A stretch of DNA of 64,000 nt from Bryobacterales bacterium. GTDB taxonomy: Bacteria; Acidobacteriota; Terriglobia; Bryobacterales; UBA6623. This document shows, one piece after another, positions 3,388 to 14,049 of the stretch. The DNA is taken from contig JAPPLB010000118.1 of the NCBI GenBank assembly GCA_028819575.1, forward strand, positions 1-64,000, given 5' to 3'. Made by a program: the position numbers and the translations under genes. The notes beneath the pieces are model-generated. The model did not search any database, was not told where the DNA came from, and was given only the letters and a program-made list of their open reading frames with translations. Numbering within the stretch: the first letter of the stretch is position 1; each line of letters begins with the position of its first letter.

Positions 3388-4079
3388 TGAAACCTACGGA
3401 CGGCCGATGTATGCCGTACATGGGGACACTGACGCGGTTTCTCGAATCGGCGTCACTTGCACTGGCGGCGGCGGGCGGTGACGGGGAAGCCAGCGAGAAC
3501 ATCCAAGTAAAATGGCGCTTATGTTCCTGGCGAGGAAACAGACGATGGGTCCATCAAGTTTATAGTCCTTGTCGTGGAAGATGACTCGGGCGCGCTGCAT
3601 TGGAACGGTGACGCCGGGAGTGCGCTCCCGGTAGCCGCCTAGGACCATGCGGTACTGCGCATGTGGGAGATGAACCCGGGTTTCCAGGGCTACCTGTTGA
3701 CGCGATGCAACTTCAAAAGGGTCCTGGGCTATGCATATATCACGGATTCCTAGGGGCAACCGCAGAGCTACCTAGCCATAGTGGATCCGAATTGAGACGA
3801 GCCGCTAGCGAGATTCGTAAACCCAACTTGTGAAACGCCGTGCTGAGTCGGATTGTTGCGCAAGTCTGGGGTGACTGACCTCTCTCTCGGCCCCTTACAG
3901 GCGTGGCTTGGAAGCAGCACCAGCCTGGGCCAGAGGAGTCTTGGACATCGATTCAAGGGGATTCTAGCGGCTTGAGTGACAACCGGAATACTCCTTAACC
4001 AAGCCGCCAGCCTGTCCGACTATCCGAAGCCACTTCAATGATCGCTTTGTGTTCGTTGAGTACTGAGGCGACGGAACGA
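3388..4079. other. degenerate intergenic stretch, no gene recognised
   Basis: Between the two Tn3 transposase pieces no credible gene is seen. An open reverse frame at 3394-3759 (about 121 codons) gives a protein I do not recognise and has no convincing ribosome site. A forward frame near 3660-3780 (FQGYLLTRCNFKRVLGYAYITDS) is broken by stops. The stretch is best read as decayed insertion debris. Confidence 0.5.
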
Positions 4080-4260
4080 CCAGTTCCTCAAACGGGCAAC
4101 GAGCCGGGCGCGACGTTCACCACTCACATCTCTGACCAGTACGCCCCATTCCACATCAAGCTCAACAGCGTGGCCGGGCGGGAAGGCATACACGTGCCGG
4201 ACGGGCTGCTGTATCATGAATCCAATCTCCACATCAAAGAGCACTACAGGCATCGTTTGC
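4080..4260 (+). pseudogene. Tn3-family transposase C-terminal (DDE domain) remnant
   Basis: The forward frame reads EPGATFTTHISDQYAPFHIK, then VPDGLLYHESNLHIKEHY. This is the conserved DDE-domain stretch of Tn3 TnpA (pattern THVSDQYAPFHTK ... VLDGLLYHES-L-I-EHYTDT). Similarity ends at EHYRH, where the TDTAG continuation is lost. It lies opposite in strand to the N-terminal piece at 3130-3387, so the transposon has been rearranged as well as truncated. Confidence 0.75.
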
Positions 4261-4348
4261 GGGTCAGACGGGAAAGAACCATATTTACACAGCACGGGGA
4301 CGGAGAATTTCCGCCACTTCCTTCCCGAGGCGCGAGCGTGGAGGAAGA

Positions 4349-4582
4349 ATGAATCTGAACAGGATCTCCCGGACGGCACTCCTGATGGCAACGCCTCTCC
4401 TCTTGTTCCCCCGGGAGGCACATGCCTACCTGGACCCCGGCAGCGGGAGCCTGATCGTGCAGGCTCTGGTGGCCGCCTTCTTTGCCCTCTCCCTGGCCAT
4501 CAAGGGCTACTGGCGAAAAATCAAATTGTTCTTGGGGGGGTTCTTCCTCACTGGTCCGGAAGTGCGGGACGGGGATGAATAG
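4349..4582 (+). CDS. small membrane protein of the AYLDPGSGS family
   Basis: 77 residues. An N-terminal signal or anchor (RTALLMATPLLLFP) is followed by the signature AYLDPGSGSLIVQAL and one transmembrane helix (LVAAFFALSLAIKGYWRKI). Short proteins with this Y-L-D-P-G-S-G-S motif are common next to surface-glycan, sulfatase or methyltransferase genes, but I know of no assigned function. The start is supported by GAGGAAGA just upstream. It lies 73 bp before the methyltransferase gene on the same strand, so the two probably form an operon. Confidence 0.75.
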   Translation: MNLNRISRTALLMATPLLLFPREAHAYLDPGSGSLIVQALVAAFFALSLAIKGYWRKIKLFLGGFFLTGPEVRDGDE

Positions 4583-4655
4583 TTCGTCTCTCTCATCTCA
4601 ACCCGTCGCCAGCGCTTACACGAAAAAGAACCCAGTGTCAGGGGGGTGAGAAGAG

Positions 4656-6050
4656 ATGGAGGTTAGCGGCACCTCCCGGCTGGGCTCCTCTTTCAGAGAC
4701 CCCAGCGGTTTCGTCTTCGTGCACGGTCGACAGATCCATCGGCAAGTCAATCTCAGCTATCGGGAGAACTACGATCACCTGATGAGTTCCGGCCTCTATC
4801 AGGAGCTGGCCGGCCGGCTGCTCATCTCCCACCAGGAGGTCAGCGATCCGCCCCCTCCGGATGGAGAGCAGGCCTACAAGGTGCTGAGGCCTGAGCAGGT
4901 TCCCTTTCTGTCCTATCCCTATGAGTGGTGCTTCAGTCAGCTGAAGGACGCCGCCCTGGCTACCCTGAAGATTCAGAGCCGGGCTTTGCACTTTGACATG
5001 ACCTTGAAGGATGCCAGCGCCTACAACATCCAGTTCCTGAAGGGCAAACCTATCCTGATCGACACCCTATCCTTCGAGAAATACCGTGAAGGACAGCCAT
5101 GGGTCGCCTACCGGCAATTCTGCCAGCACTTCCTGGCACCGCTTCTGCTGATGGCCTACCGTGATGTTCGCCTCAACCAGTTGCTGCGGATTCACCTGGA
5201 CGGGGTCCCGCTGGATCTGGCCCGTACGCTCCTCCCCTTCCGCGCTCTGGTCCGGCCATCGGTGCTGGCTCACATCCAGCTCCACTCCAGGGGCCAGCAG
5301 CACTTCGCTGCCAAGGGCGGAGCGGCCAAAGGGTGGCGTGTGAGCAGGAGAGGGATGGCGGGCCTGCTGGAGAATCTGGAGGCCCTGGTCAAGGGGCTCA
5401 CTTGGCGGGGCCAGAAGACGGAGTGGGGCGGCTACTATTCAGACACTAACTACACAGCACAGGCTCTGCACAAAAAGAAAAGCTTGGTGAGGCAGTTTTT
5501 AAGCCGCAGCCTAGAAGGGATGGTCTGGGACCTGGGAGCCAACCGGGGCCTTTTCAGCCGAATCGCGAGCCAGCAGGCAGAGGTGACTATCTCCTTTGAC
5601 ATGGATCCGGCGGCTGTTGAGAACAACTACCTGGAAGTGGTCACACGCAAGGAGACAGGGCTGCTTCCGCTGCTGGTGGATCTGACCAGCCCCAGCCCGG
5701 CCATCGGATGGCACAACCGGGAGCGCCAATCACTGCTGGAGCGCGGCCCAGCCCAGACGGTTCTGGCCCTGGCCCTCATCCATCACTTGGCCATCTCCAA
5801 CAACCTGCCCCTGGCCCGGCTGGCCGATTTCTTCGGCGCCATCTGTCACACGCTGATCATCGAATTCATCCCTAAGGAAGACTCCCAGGTGCAGCGACTC
5901 CTCTCCTCACGAAACGATGTTTTTCCAGACTACACGCGGGAGGCCTTCGAGAAACAGTTCAGCGTTCTTTTTGCTATACGGGAGAGCGCGGCCATCTCGG
6001 ATAGCGGGCGGGTTCTCTACCGGATGACTCGCCGCACTGCTGCCGGTTGA
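4656..6050 (+). CDS. NoeA-like class I SAM-dependent methyltransferase
   Basis: 464 residues. The N-terminal half has the features of NoeA/nodulation-type methyltransferases (RPEQVPFLSYPYEWCFSQLKDAAL, DASAYNIQFLKGKPILIDTLSFE). The C-terminal half is a Rossmann methyltransferase, with motif I VWDLGANRGLFSRIA near residues 288-302, the acidic motif II residue in SFDMDP, and LALIHHLAI at the motif IV position. The acceptor is unknown; a sugar or glycan target is suggested only by the family and by the small membrane protein upstream. Start ATG 4656 follows GGGGGGTGAGAAG. The gene is complete and sits within Tn3 debris. Confidence 0.8.
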   Translation: MEVSGTSRLGSSFRDPSGFVFVHGRQIHRQVNLSYRENYDHLMSSGLYQELAGRLLISHQEVSDPPPPDGEQAYKVLRPEQVPFLSYPYEWCFSQLKDAALATLKIQSRALHFDMTLKDASAYNIQFLKGKPILIDTLSFEKYREGQPWVAYRQFCQHFLAPLLLMAYRDVRLNQLLRIHLDGVPLDLARTLLPFRALVRPSVLAHIQLHSRGQQHFAAKGGAAKGWRVSRRGMAGLLENLEALVKGLTWRGQKTEWGGYYSDTNYTAQALHKKKSLVRQFLSRSLEGMVWDLGANRGLFSRIASQQAEVTISFDMDPAAVENNYLEVVTRKETGLLPLLVDLTSPSPAIGWHNRERQSLLERGPAQTVLALALIHHLAISNNLPLARLADFFGAICHTLIIEFIPKEDSQVQRLLSSRNDVFPDYTREAFEKQFSVLFAIRESAAISDSGRVLYRMTRRTAAG

Positions 6051-7937: not shown

Positions 7938-10109
7938 ATGAAAGCAATCGTTCTGTTGGTGGCCGCGGTGCTGCCTGCATCCGCCCAGCCCATCATCACA
8001 GAAAGCACTCCCGACATACGCACCGGCATCTACAACGGCAAACGCGTGACCTTCGAGGTCGTTGACGGTCTGGCCGTTGTGGAAGGTGACATCATTCTCG
8101 GAACCGCTGAGGATCTGAAACTTCCTGAGAGCGGACAGCAGGTCATCGAGAAGCCGAAGGACTATCAACCGAAAGCGCTCGTGATTGCAGATGATTTCTC
8201 GGAGCGGCTGTGGCCCGAAGGCGCCATCCCTTATGCGATCGACGACAGCCTGCCCAACCCGCAGCGCGTCCTCGATGCCATCGAGCACTGGAACGATAAC
8301 ACCGTGATTCGACTGGTGGAAAGGACTCGCGAGAAAGACTGGGTGAACTTCGTCAAGCATGAAGACAGATGTGCTTCCTGGATAGGCAAGAAAGGCGGCG
8401 AGCAGGAGATTACTGTTCCCGAAAGGTGCGGCACCGGCGGGATCATCCACGAGATCGGTCACGCGGCCGGTCTCTATCACGAGCAGTCACGAGAAGACCG
8501 CGACAGCCATGTGGAGGTGCTGTTCGACAACATCGACAAGCGTTATATATTCGCCTCCAACCAACGTATCAGGACAGCAGATGATATTGGCCCGTACGAC
8601 TACGGGTCGATCATGCACTACTCCGCGTTTGGCTTTTCGAGAAACTATCAACCTACTATCGAAACCATCCCGCCCGGCATCCCGATCGGACAGCGGGAAG
8701 GTCTCTCTCCAGGGGACATTGACGGAATAGCCGAGATGTACGGCGAGCCGCCTCTGACGACCACGATCTCCACGAACCCCGAAGGCTTGAGGGTCAAGGT
8801 GGATGGACGGACCATCAGGACGCCCAAGAGCTTCGACTGGCCGGAAGGGACACGCCATACCATTTCCGTTCCTGAATCTCAGGGTGACAACGAGGAACGC
8901 TTCCTGTTTGTCAAATGGAGCGATGGAGGAGAGCGGGAACACGACATAGAGGCCTCTTCCGAGACGAGAGTGTTTACGGCTCACATGATTCAACAGTTCA
9001 AGCTGCAATCAGGTGCTCAACCTTCCGAAGGAGGAGAGGTGATCTTAGTCCCCGCATCGCCTGACGGTTTCTACACGAACCGTTCCTATGTTGTGGTCAA
9101 TGCGGTCCCCGGAAATGGCTACTCGTTTGCCTGGTGGCAAGGTCGAGTCTGGGCCGGGTTACACGGGTACTCGGGGAATCCATTAGAAGTTCCCGTTAGG
9201 GTGGACGGTTTGAACTATACGGCCCTTTTCACAAGGCGGCCGCTCACCACCATCTCCACGAACGCGCCCGGTCGTAGAGCAGTAATCGACGGCAAGGAAT
9301 GGTGGCTTCCGATGAACTTCCTCTGGGATGCCAGCAGCATTCACTCCATCGGAGTCACCGATGTCGTTCAATCGGGGCCTTCCAGAGCCAGCCGATGGGT
9401 CTTCAGGGATTGGAGCGACGGCGGCGGTATGACGCATACCATCAGGGTTCCCGATCAACCCTCTACCTTTACCGCATACTTCGGCGAACAGCATCTGCTG
9501 ACGAAGGAGATATTGCTCTCGGAGGAAAGAGGGTCTATCTACGCGAGCCCGGCTTCGGACGATGGCTTTTATGATGCGGGAACGCCTTTGCAGTTGACCG
9601 CGATCCCTAAAACCGGATACGAGTTCTCGTTCTGGGCCAATTGGAACGATGGAGGCCTCAGCGCGCACACATCTGAGAATCCCACAACCCTGACGATGGA
9701 TGAGCAAGGGTGGATAGCAGCCGGTTTCACGCTATCCAGGATGCTTATCTCGGGAGCGGCTCCCCGGGAGTTTTCTCTTCCGTCCGTCGAAAGACCGATC
9801 TTCTTCAGTGGGCGCTACAGTTACACGGTGAATGTTCCCGAGGACGCAACCGGACTGCGGGTGAACCTGAAAACGAAAACCGCCGACGTAGATGTGGACC
9901 TGCATGTCAACCACGGTTCGGATGCAATTCTGTCTGACGGAAGAGTCGTCTCCGACCACTCCTCGGAGGGTCCCTTCGGCGATGAATCCGTCTACATCAC
10001 CCGCAGCACCGACCCCCCGTTGCGTGCGGGAACGTACTTCATCTCCTTCACGCTGTGGACAACCGGCAAGAGAGTAGAAGCGACTATATCCGCGACTGTG
10101 GAGGAGTGA
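7938..10109 (+). CDS. secreted astacin-family (M12A) metalloprotease with C-terminal repeat and PPC domains
   Basis: 723 residues. A signal peptide (MKAIVLLVAAVLPASA) is followed by a propeptide-like region and an astacin domain. The zinc motif HEIGHAAGLYHE starts at residue 171 (ligands H171, H175, H181, catalytic E172), and the Met-turn SIMHY has its Met at about 226. Two PEGA-like segments (ISTNPEGLRVKVDG, ISTNAPGRRAVIDG) alternate with InlB/'bacterial repeat' segments (GGEVILVPASPDGFY, GSIYASPASDDGFY). The last about 80 residues look like a PPC domain. It probably acts outside the cell on proteins. The conserved astacin Tyr following SIMHY is present. No operon partner is seen. Confidence 0.9.
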   Translation: MKAIVLLVAAVLPASAQPIITESTPDIRTGIYNGKRVTFEVVDGLAVVEGDIILGTAEDLKLPESGQQVIEKPKDYQPKALVIADDFSERLWPEGAIPYAIDDSLPNPQRVLDAIEHWNDNTVIRLVERTREKDWVNFVKHEDRCASWIGKKGGEQEITVPERCGTGGIIHEIGHAAGLYHEQSREDRDSHVEVLFDNIDKRYIFASNQRIRTADDIGPYDYGSIMHYSAFGFSRNYQPTIETIPPGIPIGQREGLSPGDIDGIAEMYGEPPLTTTISTNPEGLRVKVDGRTIRTPKSFDWPEGTRHTISVPESQGDNEERFLFVKWSDGGEREHDIEASSETRVFTAHMIQQFKLQSGAQPSEGGEVILVPASPDGFYTNRSYVVVNAVPGNGYSFAWWQGRVWAGLHGYSGNPLEVPVRVDGLNYTALFTRRPLTTISTNAPGRRAVIDGKEWWLPMNFLWDASSIHSIGVTDVVQSGPSRASRWVFRDWSDGGGMTHTIRVPDQPSTFTAYFGEQHLLTKEILLSEERGSIYASPASDDGFYDAGTPLQLTAIPKTGYEFSFWANWNDGGLSAHTSENPTTLTMDEQGWIAAGFTLSRMLISGAAPREFSLPSVERPIFFSGRYSYTVNVPEDATGLRVNLKTKTADVDVDLHVNHGSDAILSDGRVVSDHSSEGPFGDESVYITRSTDPPLRAGTYFISFTLWTTGKRVEATISATVEE

Positions 10110-10457: not shown

Positions 10458-12614
10458 GTGAACAAACACGAAGAAAAGGTGGGCATCTTTACCGCCATGG
10501 ACCGCCTCCGTTTGCTTCAACTCATGACCCGACGTGCAATGGCGGAACGGCGCGCGAGGGCTTGTAAGCAAGAAGATGAGGGATCTGATGCCCCGCGTGA
10601 CGAAAGCAAGGGCTTACAAACCGGCATTATTCCTGATCGCTGGTGCCTAGTCCCCGAAGGAGTCTCGCTCTATGACTGGCAGCGCATGTGTTTACCTCTC
10701 TGGCTGGCGCACGGTCGTGGAACCGTCAAAGTGGCGACAGGCGGCGGAAAGACTCTGTTTGCCCTAGCGGTAGCGCAGCAACTCCAAAATGAGCGGGAGC
10801 CCGATCTGCGCTTTGTGGTGGTCGTACCGACAATCCCTCTAATGTACCAGTGGCGTGACGAAGTGCGTCTCGGGAATCTTCCGCATTCCGCGATCGCCTT
10901 GATGGGTGGAGGCGAAGAACTGCCCTCGCTATCAGGGGTTCGTGTCCTAATTTGCGTCTTGAACTCCGCTCGCAAGAAGCTTGCTGCACTTGTCAAGAAG
11001 GCAGACTGGAGGCAGCGGATGCTTCTTGTCGTTGATGAGTGTCACCGCTCCAACGCGACGCAGGCGCGTCAAATCTTCGATGCGGCGCCACAGTACACCC
11101 TCGGCCTTTCGGCGACGCCGGAGCAGGAACTGGAGGCGGAGAATCTGCCTACCGACGAAGCCTATGAGAAAAGCTTTGTCGGCCAAGCTTTGGGGCCAAT
11201 CATCTACGACTTCACGATTAGTCAGAGTCTAGCCGCCGGATTACTCACGCCCTTCCAAGTGTGGCACATTGCATTGTCGTTGGCTCCAGGGGAGGCCAAA
11301 GAACACAGTCGGCTGAGCCGGGAAATCAGCGACCTTCGCAAGGTTCTACAGGCTCGTCACAGCAAGAGCAGATCTCACCAGGGGTTTCTCGCTTGGTGCC
11401 AGTCGCAGGCTAGTCGAGGCGGGCCTGCTGCGATCGAGGCTGAGCGCTTCGTCGGACTTGCCAACCGGCGCAAGCGGCTCCTTTACCGAGCCACAGCGCG
11501 AGCGGATGTGACGCTAGCAATCCTCTCGGAATCGGTCTCCAATCCCGATGGGCGCACCATCGTGTTTCACGAATCTATTGAGGAGATCGAAGCCCTATTC
11601 CTCCGTGCGACCGAGCAGAGCATTCCGGCTGTGCTTGAGCATAGCCAGCTACCGGGCAGCCTTCGCGCTGAGAATATTGAGGCATTTCGACAAGGGACTG
11701 CCCAAGTGATCATTAGCGCCAAGTCTCTTATTGAGGGCTTCAACGTGCCCTCGGCTGACTTAGGAATCATCGCCGCATCCTCCGGCTCGGTGCGGCAGAG
11801 GATTCAGAGCCTCGGTCGAATGCTGCGTCGGAAGCCCAGTGGCCGTGGGGCACGCATCGTCGTGCTCTACGTACGAGACACTGAGGACGAAGCCATCTAT
11901 GAGAAGGCCGCTTGGGAGGATGTGGTCGGCACGGAACGCAATCGGTACTTTGTCTGGCGCGGTCCAGTTGACGGAAAAGGCTGGACCATGGGACTTGAGG
12001 AAGCCCCGGGGCCGCCCCGTTGCTACAGACCTTCATCACGGGAAGTCGATGTCGATAGCCTCAAAAAGGGAGACCCTTACCCGGGCAAGCCAGATGGGTT
12101 GGACCTGCGGGTAGATCAAGACGGCAACCTTCGCACAGAGGGCAATGCTCTGGTTCCAGTTGCAAGTGAAATCATTGAGGCCATCCTAGAACACAATCCA
12201 TACCGCCGTGCCAAGCGTACACCAGCTGGGCACTTGATCGTGCGCATAGATCCTCATAACTCGAAAGGAGTGGAATGGCGCTATCTCGGTAAAATCGAAC
12301 TCACGGACGATGGCAACGAGGAGACGGCCATCAGGCTTCAGCTCAAACAAATATCCGGGCGGCGGGTAATTGCCCATGAGGATGAGCGCCGGAAGGGAAT
12401 CGTACCTTTCGCTCTGGGCCCTGAGGCAAGTTGCTCGCCAGAGGCCGGTGAGGCGCGGAACCGGCTCCTCGAATGGGTTCGCGGCGTCGAAAAGAGCAAG
12501 GGCATCAAAGCCCGGGAACTCTACTGGGATAAGAATACCCGATACTGGCTAGAGATCAGTGGCCAGCGGATCGAGTATCACGGCCCCCTCGCCCCTTTGG
12601 AGTTCAGGACATGA
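10458..12614 (+). CDS. SF2 (XPB/Ssl2-like) DECH-box helicase with C-terminal shared module
   Basis: 718 residues from GTG 10458. ATG 10497, 13 residues in, has AAAGGTGGG upstream and may be the true start. Motifs: Q-motif-like LYDWQRMCLPLW, Walker A TGGGKT at 94-99, DECH at 193-196, LSATP near 217 and the motif VI-like QSLGRMLRRKP near 450. These define a complete two-RecA ATP-dependent helicase of the COG1061 type. Residues about 538-620 carry GDPYPGKPDGLDLRVDQDGNL followed by GHLIVRID...WRYLGKIEL. By eye this module recurs in both downstream proteins. The stop overlaps the next start (ATGA). A role in defence or nucleic-acid processing is inference only. Confidence 0.85.
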   Translation: MNKHEEKVGIFTAMDRLRLLQLMTRRAMAERRARACKQEDEGSDAPRDESKGLQTGIIPDRWCLVPEGVSLYDWQRMCLPLWLAHGRGTVKVATGGGKTLFALAVAQQLQNEREPDLRFVVVVPTIPLMYQWRDEVRLGNLPHSAIALMGGGEELPSLSGVRVLICVLNSARKKLAALVKKADWRQRMLLVVDECHRSNATQARQIFDAAPQYTLGLSATPEQELEAENLPTDEAYEKSFVGQALGPIIYDFTISQSLAAGLLTPFQVWHIALSLAPGEAKEHSRLSREISDLRKVLQARHSKSRSHQGFLAWCQSQASRGGPAAIEAERFVGLANRRKRLLYRATARADVTLAILSESVSNPDGRTIVFHESIEEIEALFLRATEQSIPAVLEHSQLPGSLRAENIEAFRQGTAQVIISAKSLIEGFNVPSADLGIIAASSGSVRQRIQSLGRMLRRKPSGRGARIVVLYVRDTEDEAIYEKAAWEDVVGTERNRYFVWRGPVDGKGWTMGLEEAPGPPRCYRPSSREVDVDSLKKGDPYPGKPDGLDLRVDQDGNLRTEGNALVPVASEIIEAILEHNPYRRAKRTPAGHLIVRIDPHNSKGVEWRYLGKIELTDDGNEETAIRLQLKQISGRRVIAHEDERRKGIVPFALGPEASCSPEAGEARNRLLEWVRGVEKSKGIKARELYWDKNTRYWLEISGQRIEYHGPLAPLEFRT

Positions 12615-13312
12615 CAACCTTCATGTATGAACCCGAACGGCGGCCCTATCCACGTTGGATGGGCCCGTTTTCACCAGCACGGGGAACTCGGTCGGGATTT
12701 CGTTTTCACCGAGGTCGGTTAGGGACATGGGTACAGGACGAGTTCAAGAGAAGTTTTTGGCCCGTGCTCGATTGTCGTGGAACGAAACTGTTAACTAACC
12801 TCGTTAGGCGTGAGTGGGGTGGCGGCCGCATACTCCTGTTGCCGACCGGTTTGGTGGTGAAACCACTTCAAGGGGATGACGAAGTCGGGCGTCGTGTCGT
12901 CATTGGGCGGTTTCGCGGCCCTGTTGTTCTCCAGAGACCGGATGGGAGGACCTTCAACCTCAATTATCCTGGCGATCTCCAGCCTGGAGACCCATGGACG
13001 GGGCCCAAGACGACCGGACTGGAATGCGCTATCCAGTCAGACGGTTCGCTCGTCTGCAAGTGGTACCACCCGACCCGACTCGGAAAGGAAACCATTACAG
13101 AACAGTTGCATGGGGCCGATCACACCTTGGCAAGCGGATTTAGAAGGGTGCGGCCCATAGATGTTGGCGGTCGCGTCCGCGTCACTGCAAATGGACACGT
13201 CATCACGAACCGTCAAACGTGGACCGAAGAATGGATAGCATTCTATGTCGGTCGAATTGATCCTACCTCGTGGACGAACTGGAATAGGTGGACAGGGAGA
13301 ACCAGCACATGA
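12611..13312 (+). CDS. unrecognised protein with the shared module, helicase partner B
   Basis: 233 residues, family not recognised. The start codon overlaps the helicase stop (ATGA), implying translational coupling. No signal peptide or membrane segment is seen, and the composition suggests beta-rich soluble domains. Around residues 68-105 it has GGGRILLLPTGLVVKP...VVIGRF. From residue 126 it has GDPWTGPKTTGLECAIQSDG, and near 188-220 GGRVRVTANGHVI...FYVGRID...W. The second and third segments line up, in the same order, with the helicase C-terminus and with the next protein. Function is unknown; substrate or target recognition for the helicase is my inference. Confidence 0.75.
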   Translation: MTTFMYEPERRPYPRWMGPFSPARGTRSGFRFHRGRLGTWVQDEFKRSFWPVLDCRGTKLLTNLVRREWGGGRILLLPTGLVVKPLQGDDEVGRRVVIGRFRGPVVLQRPDGRTFNLNYPGDLQPGDPWTGPKTTGLECAIQSDGSLVCKWYHPTRLGKETITEQLHGADHTLASGFRRVRPIDVGGRVRVTANGHVITNRQTWTEEWIAFYVGRIDPTSWTNWNRWTGRTST

Positions 13313-14049
13313 CCACGCCGAAAATCTATCGTGGCGTCTGGCCGCGGAACGTCAGCAGGCTGGCCAAATACGCTGTCCGGATCGTCGGCGGAGAGTGGAA
13401 GATCACCGTTCTCTATGAGGTGGAGGCAGGTCTGCGCTATCTGGCTGTTGAAGGTGATGGCACTGACATCGTCGAGCGAATTAATGCTGTGAAGACGGGG
13501 CTCGGAGATAGGCTGGGCGGAGGTGCCTTCTATGTCAACGAGTACAGGCACGTGCTTGTCCCCGTCTCGAGCCATTCCTCGGGCCCCTCGCCCCACTACT
13601 ACTATGCGGGGCGACTCCAAGGAGACCTCAGCTTTGAGTTCGAGGGCCAGCCGTTGATAACCAGACCGCTTCATCCGAACGGCACGCCGTTGAATGCAGG
13701 AGAACGCTGGGTGGGACCCCGCCCAGGGATTCCCTATGTGCTCGCCGCCGGTGGCGACGATATCTATTATGAGACACCAGCGTTAACCGACGAGAATCCG
13801 CCGCGCGTACGCGCCTTAGTGACCCAGCGTGTCAAACTATCGAAGGTCTTACACAACCCGGCACTACTGGGCCACGCTGTTCGGCCAATTGCAAACATTC
13901 GTGGCCACCAAGGCGGGCGCTTCTACGTCAACGAGCACGGCGTAATGTTCACACCAGTGGACGCCGGGGATGGCAACGGCATGGATTACGTCTACTGCGG
14001 ACAGATTGACCGATCTGCATGGTTTCCAGAGCCGCCCATAGAAGATTAG
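13309..14049 (+). CDS. unrecognised protein with the shared module, helicase partner C
   Basis: 246 residues from ATG 13309, which overlaps the previous stop as ATGA; an in-frame start at 13288 would lengthen the overlap. It is apparently a paralogue of the preceding gene. Residues about 72-112 contain GGGAFYVNEYRHVLVPV...YYYAGRL, residue 131 onward GERWVGPRPGIPYVLAAGGD, and about 205-238 GGRFYVNEHGVMFTPVD...YVYCGQID. It is soluble, with no signal peptide or transmembrane segment. It closes the three-gene operon; the next gene, a pilin, lies 235 bp away with its own likely promoter. Function is unknown. Confidence 0.75.
   Translation: MTTPKIYRGVWPRNVSRLAKYAVRIVGGEWKITVLYEVEAGLRYLAVEGDGTDIVERINAVKTGLGDRLGGGAFYVNEYRHVLVPVSSHSSGPSPHYYYAGRLQGDLSFEFEGQPLITRPLHPNGTPLNAGERWVGPRPGIPYVLAAGGDDIYYETPALTDENPPRVRALVTQRVKLSKVLHNPALLGHAVRPIANIRGHQGGRFYVNEHGVMFTPVDAGDGNGMDYVYCGQIDRSAWFPEPPIED

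Follow-up and report, generated by a model that had tools for sequence, protein, structure and literature searches.

The window analysed here is a 64,000-nucleotide stretch of a Bryobacterales bacterium genome (GCA_028819575.1, contig JAPPLB010000118.1, positions 1 to 64,000). It carries an operon of three genes, A, B and C, in which an XPB-like superfamily 2 (SF2) helicase and its two partner proteins have in common a homologous module some 90 residues long. We infer with modest confidence that A-B-C is an undescribed, horizontally moving anti-invader defence complex. This reading rests on sequence evidence: homology and motifs of the helicase, homology of the module, linkage and co-occurrence of the genes, their spread across phyla, and defence genes beside the operon in other genomes. 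The three genes lie on the forward strand (Table 1), and the reading frames, positions and overlaps agree with a first-pass annotation of the window, which had described a helicase operon joined by two ATGA overlaps (12611-12614 between A and B, 13309-13312 between B and C, 4 bp each). Gene A matches the Pfam families ResIII (2.6e-21) and Helicase_C (7.6e-14), with a marginal match to ERCC3_RAD25_C (0.004). Its helicase motifs were read in the sequence and are invariant across seven relatives, and the nearest solved structures are those of archaeal XPB (6p4f at 4e-22, 5tnu likewise at about 4e-22).

The motifs quoted in the annotation for A, B and C are present in the order described, and its proposal that helicase and both partners have one unrecognised module in common was borne out by profile matches across genes and organisms. 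B and C contain two copies each, and A contains one clear and one diverged copy. The annotation had placed an additional half of the module near residues 70-110 of B and C; the additional copies exist, but each is a complete second copy rather than a half. The 3978 open reading frames (ORFs) of the window and of 80 viral contigs served as the background for the profile searches. With haloarchaeal modules as its sole input, a profile gave its three best scores among these ORFs to C (4.7e-8), B (2.6e-7) and A (0.03). A profile from B copies alone recovered C at 2e-9, and one from helicase tails (bacterial first units and haloarchaeal helicases) recovered C at 2e-6 and B at 5e-6; a profile from C copies alone recovered neither A nor B in this background. 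When the profile was made without any A copy, the A proteins of relatives scored 7e-10 to 5e-3, and the window's A was weakly matched (0.037) at residues 535-615, which is the expected place. Shuffled sequences scored below the real A matches in this A-free test. Judged by these profile scores, the sharing of the module across A, B and C is beyond chance. The second copy of A could be detected individually without training only in the A proteins of two relatives, G357 and G946 (about 0.01), and the copy at about residues 625-716 of the window's A is predicted from homology with relatives.

We aligned 36 copies of the module excised from helicase tails and partner proteins. They follow the pattern G-D-P-W/Y-x-G ... 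G-x-x-Y-S-V ... G ... helix ... G-G-x-F/V-x-V-x-x-x-G-x-V ... V-Y-V-G-x-I/L, and the conserved columns are glycines, aromatics and aliphatics plus a single acidic residue, that of the GD motif with which the module opens. Because no set of catalytic-looking residues is conserved in the 36 aligned copies, the module more probably serves in binding or assembly than as an enzyme. B and C had no match in Pfam, PADLOC, NCBIfam or PHROGs, and no match found in these four databases, the Protein Data Bank (PDB) or the literature covers the module. An alternative start of gene C, the upstream GTG at 13288, would give a protein of 253 aa.

Table 1. Genes and module copies of the operon in the window, and a gene found in three haloarchaeal plasmids
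Feature	Location	Strand	Description
Gene A	10458..12614	+	XPB-like SF2 helicase, 718 aa; intact motifs ATGGGKT, DECH, SAT, QRIQSLGRMLRR
Module copy A1	12060..12317	+	helicase residues about 535-620; GDPYPGKPDGL...GHLIV...WRYLGKIEL
Module copy A2 (diverged)	12330..12605	+	helicase residues about 625-716; predicted by alignment with clearer second copies of relatives
Gene B	12611..13312	+	233 aa, basic (pI 10.6), two module copies
Module copy B1	12656..12928	+	
Module copy B2	12974..13273	+	GDPWTGPKTTGL...GGRVRVTANGHVIT...FYVGRID
Gene C	13309..14049	+	246 aa from ATG 13309, two module copies
Module copy C1	13327..13635	+	GGAFYVNEYRHVLVPV...YYYAGRLQG
Module copy C2	13690..14025	+	GERWVGPRPGI...GGRFYVNEHG...YVYCGQID
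375-aa Walker-A-like protein	L006:3967-5094, L008:5033-6160, L010:5032-6159		

B and C co-occur strictly with the module-bearing helicase, both in 399 genomes of the window's class and in 72,556 plasmid records. The helicase with the module is present in three of the class genomes (G000, G077 and G946) and the partner profile matches exactly the same three; two helicase relatives that lack the module (G006 and G931) have no partner genes. Among the plasmid records, near-full-length members of both archaeal partner families are confined to the same five, and it is in these five that the helicase match extends past the core; one further record has a fragment of one archaeal partner, 46 residues long. 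Homologues of B and C that never occur with the helicase, named beforehand as the outcome that would speak against the proposal, were looked for and are not what was seen. The order of the genes is conserved as well. Overlapping genes in the order A-B-C are found in the window and at four of six other bacterial loci: two loci of an Actinomycetota metagenome-assembled genome (MAG; G493, loci L005/L118 and L117), one of G077 (L019) and one of G447 (L018). L118 ends inside C at the contig end, part of C is masked in L117, and the contig of L018 breaks off after A, B and the first part of C. The fifth locus (L130 of G946) has A and one overlapping two-module partner, and the sixth has A alone. Five haloarchaeal plasmids encode a longer helicase with one tail copy of the module, together with two partner proteins. 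In three of the plasmids both partner genes immediately precede the helicase, and in the other two one partner lies apart on the other strand.

The operon is infrequent, being carried by 3 of 396 genomes of the window's phylum and by 1 of 396 in the phylum to which G493 belongs. In a maximum-likelihood tree, 12 module-bearing helicases from different phyla group together (support 97/98), apart from XPB-DUF790 and Pbe helicases; this group also holds one long-branched relative without the module (G006). The A protein of the window groups with that of the Actinomycetota MAG (54-56% identity) and not with the copies of its own phylum. Such rarity, taken with kinship across phyla, suggests horizontal transfer of the operon. 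No copy was found in 50,697 phage records or in scans of viral contigs, where only relatives of the helicase core without the module were seen. One partner match in the viral-contig scan (L123) was rejected as a 19-residue chance match inside a phage gene.

Defence genes stand near the operon in other genomes. In G946, SspB, SspC, SspD, a DndB-like gene and SspF form an operon divergent from A, and a TmtA/Tiamat-like sacsin ATPase gene lies upstream of A in L117. Two haloarchaeal plasmids (L008 and L010) have CARF/GapS1-like nuclease genes, identified with PADLOC for L008. A Mrr-type nuclease gene adjoins a module gene in a Haloferax plasmid, and a Piwi gene lies near the module-bearing copy in a Natrinema plasmid. 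The defence setting that the annotation had proposed is supported by these neighbours in other genomes but not at the window's own locus. It had also placed the operon among insertion sequence (IS) remnants, which was not supported in the flanking ORFs tested: no transposase or IS gene was recognised with Pfam in 10 flanking ORFs or in 5 flanking genes.

These observations suggest how a defence complex of this kind might work. A would be an ATP-driven translocase or unwinder of double-stranded DNA, of the XPB/Pbe-helicase kind. The beta-rich modules in the A tail, B and C, two copies in each, would dock the partners on the motor, hold DNA, or both, and such a scaffold could let the motor engage invading DNA. 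No nuclease is encoded in the bacterial operon itself. The invader DNA would either be blocked or remodelled without being cut or be passed to a nuclease encoded elsewhere, and the differing nuclease and defence neighbours in other genomes look like exchangeable effectors. We hold a more specific form of this proposal only tentatively: the helicase tail and the two partners may make up a hetero-trimeric, six-module, pseudo-symmetric assembly round DNA that accepts a different nuclease in each of several lineages. The operon would then be an undescribed defence system with a domain family of its own. That this assembly takes the form of a clamp-like ring is much less likely; PCNA was among the top Foldseek matches, none of them significant (best E 0.27, TM about 0.25). 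If the defence reading is true, the system is new to the catalogues searched and is a compact three-gene test case for the way in which a nuclease-less helicase can block invading DNA. It would also bring a beta-rich module family with no Pfam or PDB match, through which a helicase is linked to partners of its own, and a test case for the way in which different nucleases may be plugged into one helicase core in bacteria and archaea.

Several points weigh against this reading. No fold could be assigned to the module. An AlphaFold2 (AF2) model of a single module, computed from nine aligned single-module sequences of the window and L005, has a helical segment flanked by three strands on each side, with low to moderate confidence (predicted local distance difference test, pLDDT, 63; predicted template modelling score, pTM, 0.57), and the model of full-length C was unusable (pLDDT 43). 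Foldseek searches against the PDB and viral models gave nothing below E 0.09, that is, no significant structural neighbour. At locus L017 of G357, A occurs without B or C. We count this A as solitary because a suspected B remnant downstream of it is a weak match (0.015) that is not credible on reading. None of the flanking ORFs tested beside the window's operon was recognised as a defence gene. The Mrr- and Piwi-type genes lie outside the operon of A, and some of the nuclease neighbours may be bystanders in variable regions of plasmids, since they differ from locus to locus. SspC is present in only one of six carrier genomes and absent from the other five, including the window's own, and thus phosphorothioation is not a constant partner.

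Among profile matches to solved structures, designed 'Cake' propellers and JetA were considered and rejected; these matches were short or insignificant, and no stretch passes for Cake.

The same helicase could instead belong to a repair or genome-maintenance complex, in which an XPB-like motor with dedicated B and C acts on damage or stalled replication of host DNA, by analogy with archaeal XPB and the nuclease Bax1 (DUF790) that partners it. We consider this unlikely. The closeness of archaeal XPB structures speaks for it, as do the next relatives on plasmids, which are XPB-DUF790 pairs, and the neighbours of the operon in the window, which are housekeeping or unassigned genes (e.g., undecaprenyl diphosphate synthase, nucleotidyltransferase and ATP synthase). 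A and archaeal XPB share an XPB-type SF2 helicase core of the same branch, but neither B nor C has a DUF790 match in Pfam, and A has the C-terminal module tail instead. Module-bearing loci are without a DUF790 partner, and in the tree the XPB-DUF790 helicases, which lack the module, make up a clade apart. Furthermore, the operon is carried by about 1% of class genomes, crosses phyla and occurs on plasmids, unlike a core repair factor.

It is less probable still that the genes serve a mobile element itself, in replication of a plasmid or integrative element, transfer or counter-defence, and were left as cargo in the window's chromosome. The patchy distribution and the five haloarchaeal copies on plasmids are consistent with this idea. 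However, no hallmark genes of mobile elements were recognised beside the window's operon, the phage records and viral-contig scans held no copy, and the neighbours elsewhere are defence genes, not replication or transfer genes.

Comparison with known systems also bears on the proposed defence complex, and lends it support in that the annotated helicases closest to A belong to phosphorothioate-linked defence. The best PADLOC match of gene A is PbeA (1.6e-53, residues 34-478), from the PbeABCD or CxC-ABC-ATPase systems (PMC6459918, PMC10853773). The likeness consists in the PbeA-type SF2 helicase core, in a helicase with small dedicated partner genes, and in a patchy distribution across domains. 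PbeABCD reportedly halts the replication of viruses while leaving their DNA uncleaved (PMC6459918), which is disputed (PMC10853773). However, the N-terminal HKD/PLD nuclease half of PbeA is missing in A: the stretch ahead of the helicase core is only about 60 residues long, profile positions 1-229 are unmatched, and Pfam finds no PLD. PbeC (the CxC ABC-ATPase) and PbeD (DndE) are not at the locus, and the partners are built of the new module, which is absent from the PbeA relatives fetched. TIGR04095 (dnd_restrict_1, a phosphorothioation restriction enzyme) is the best NCBIfam match over the helicase core of A (3.9e-38), but A scores 131.6 bits against a curated cutoff of 600, and no dnd or ssp genes adjoin the window's operon. 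SspFGH (PMC8092258) is likewise a three-gene cassette, and SspF and SspBCD adjoin the G946 copy; however, A, B and C have no match to SspF, SspG or SspH in PADLOC, SspH is FtsK-like (PMC8092258), and SspC is absent from most carriers. It is therefore very improbable that A-B-C is a phosphorothioate-dependent restriction arm, related to PbeABCD or SspFGH and acting only with Ssp/Dnd modification: a core closest to PbeA and TIGR04095 and the single locus beside SspBCD and SspF favour it, and the rarity of SspC among carriers, the lack of the PbeA nuclease half, PbeC and PbeD at the loci, and the TIGR04095 score far under the cutoff oppose it. The annotation's remark that no named system has this layout holds for the databases searched and the open-access literature, in which no paper on this operon was found.

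Some further genes were observed at the loci of relatives. In three haloarchaeal plasmids, a 375-aa protein with a Walker-A-like GESNGGKGT and no Pfam match precedes the two module genes (Table 1), and it may be a further component there. At L130 of G946, a 279-aa ORF directly after the module partner (12607-13446) resembles a PD-(D/E)XK nuclease by eye (TPDFRVF...YCEAKHV); it has no Pfam match. In L117, the Tiamat-like gene and A are separated by a 510-aa ORF (3696-5228) for which Pfam gives no match; its C-terminal sequence recurs at the 5' end of L005, upstream of A. The next relatives of the helicase include two actinobacterial plasmid proteins (L137:5914-8886 and L138:5743-8373; 30-33% identity) with long C-terminal extensions that lack the module, one of them annotated as sigma-70 family. 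The shorter module-less relative of G006 (L003) adjoins an ORF that by eye is a likely DNA methyltransferase. In the window, the ORF just upstream of the operon (7938-10109) encodes an astacin-like metallopeptidase that also contains a pre-peptidase C-terminal domain and two InlB B-repeats, both divergent.
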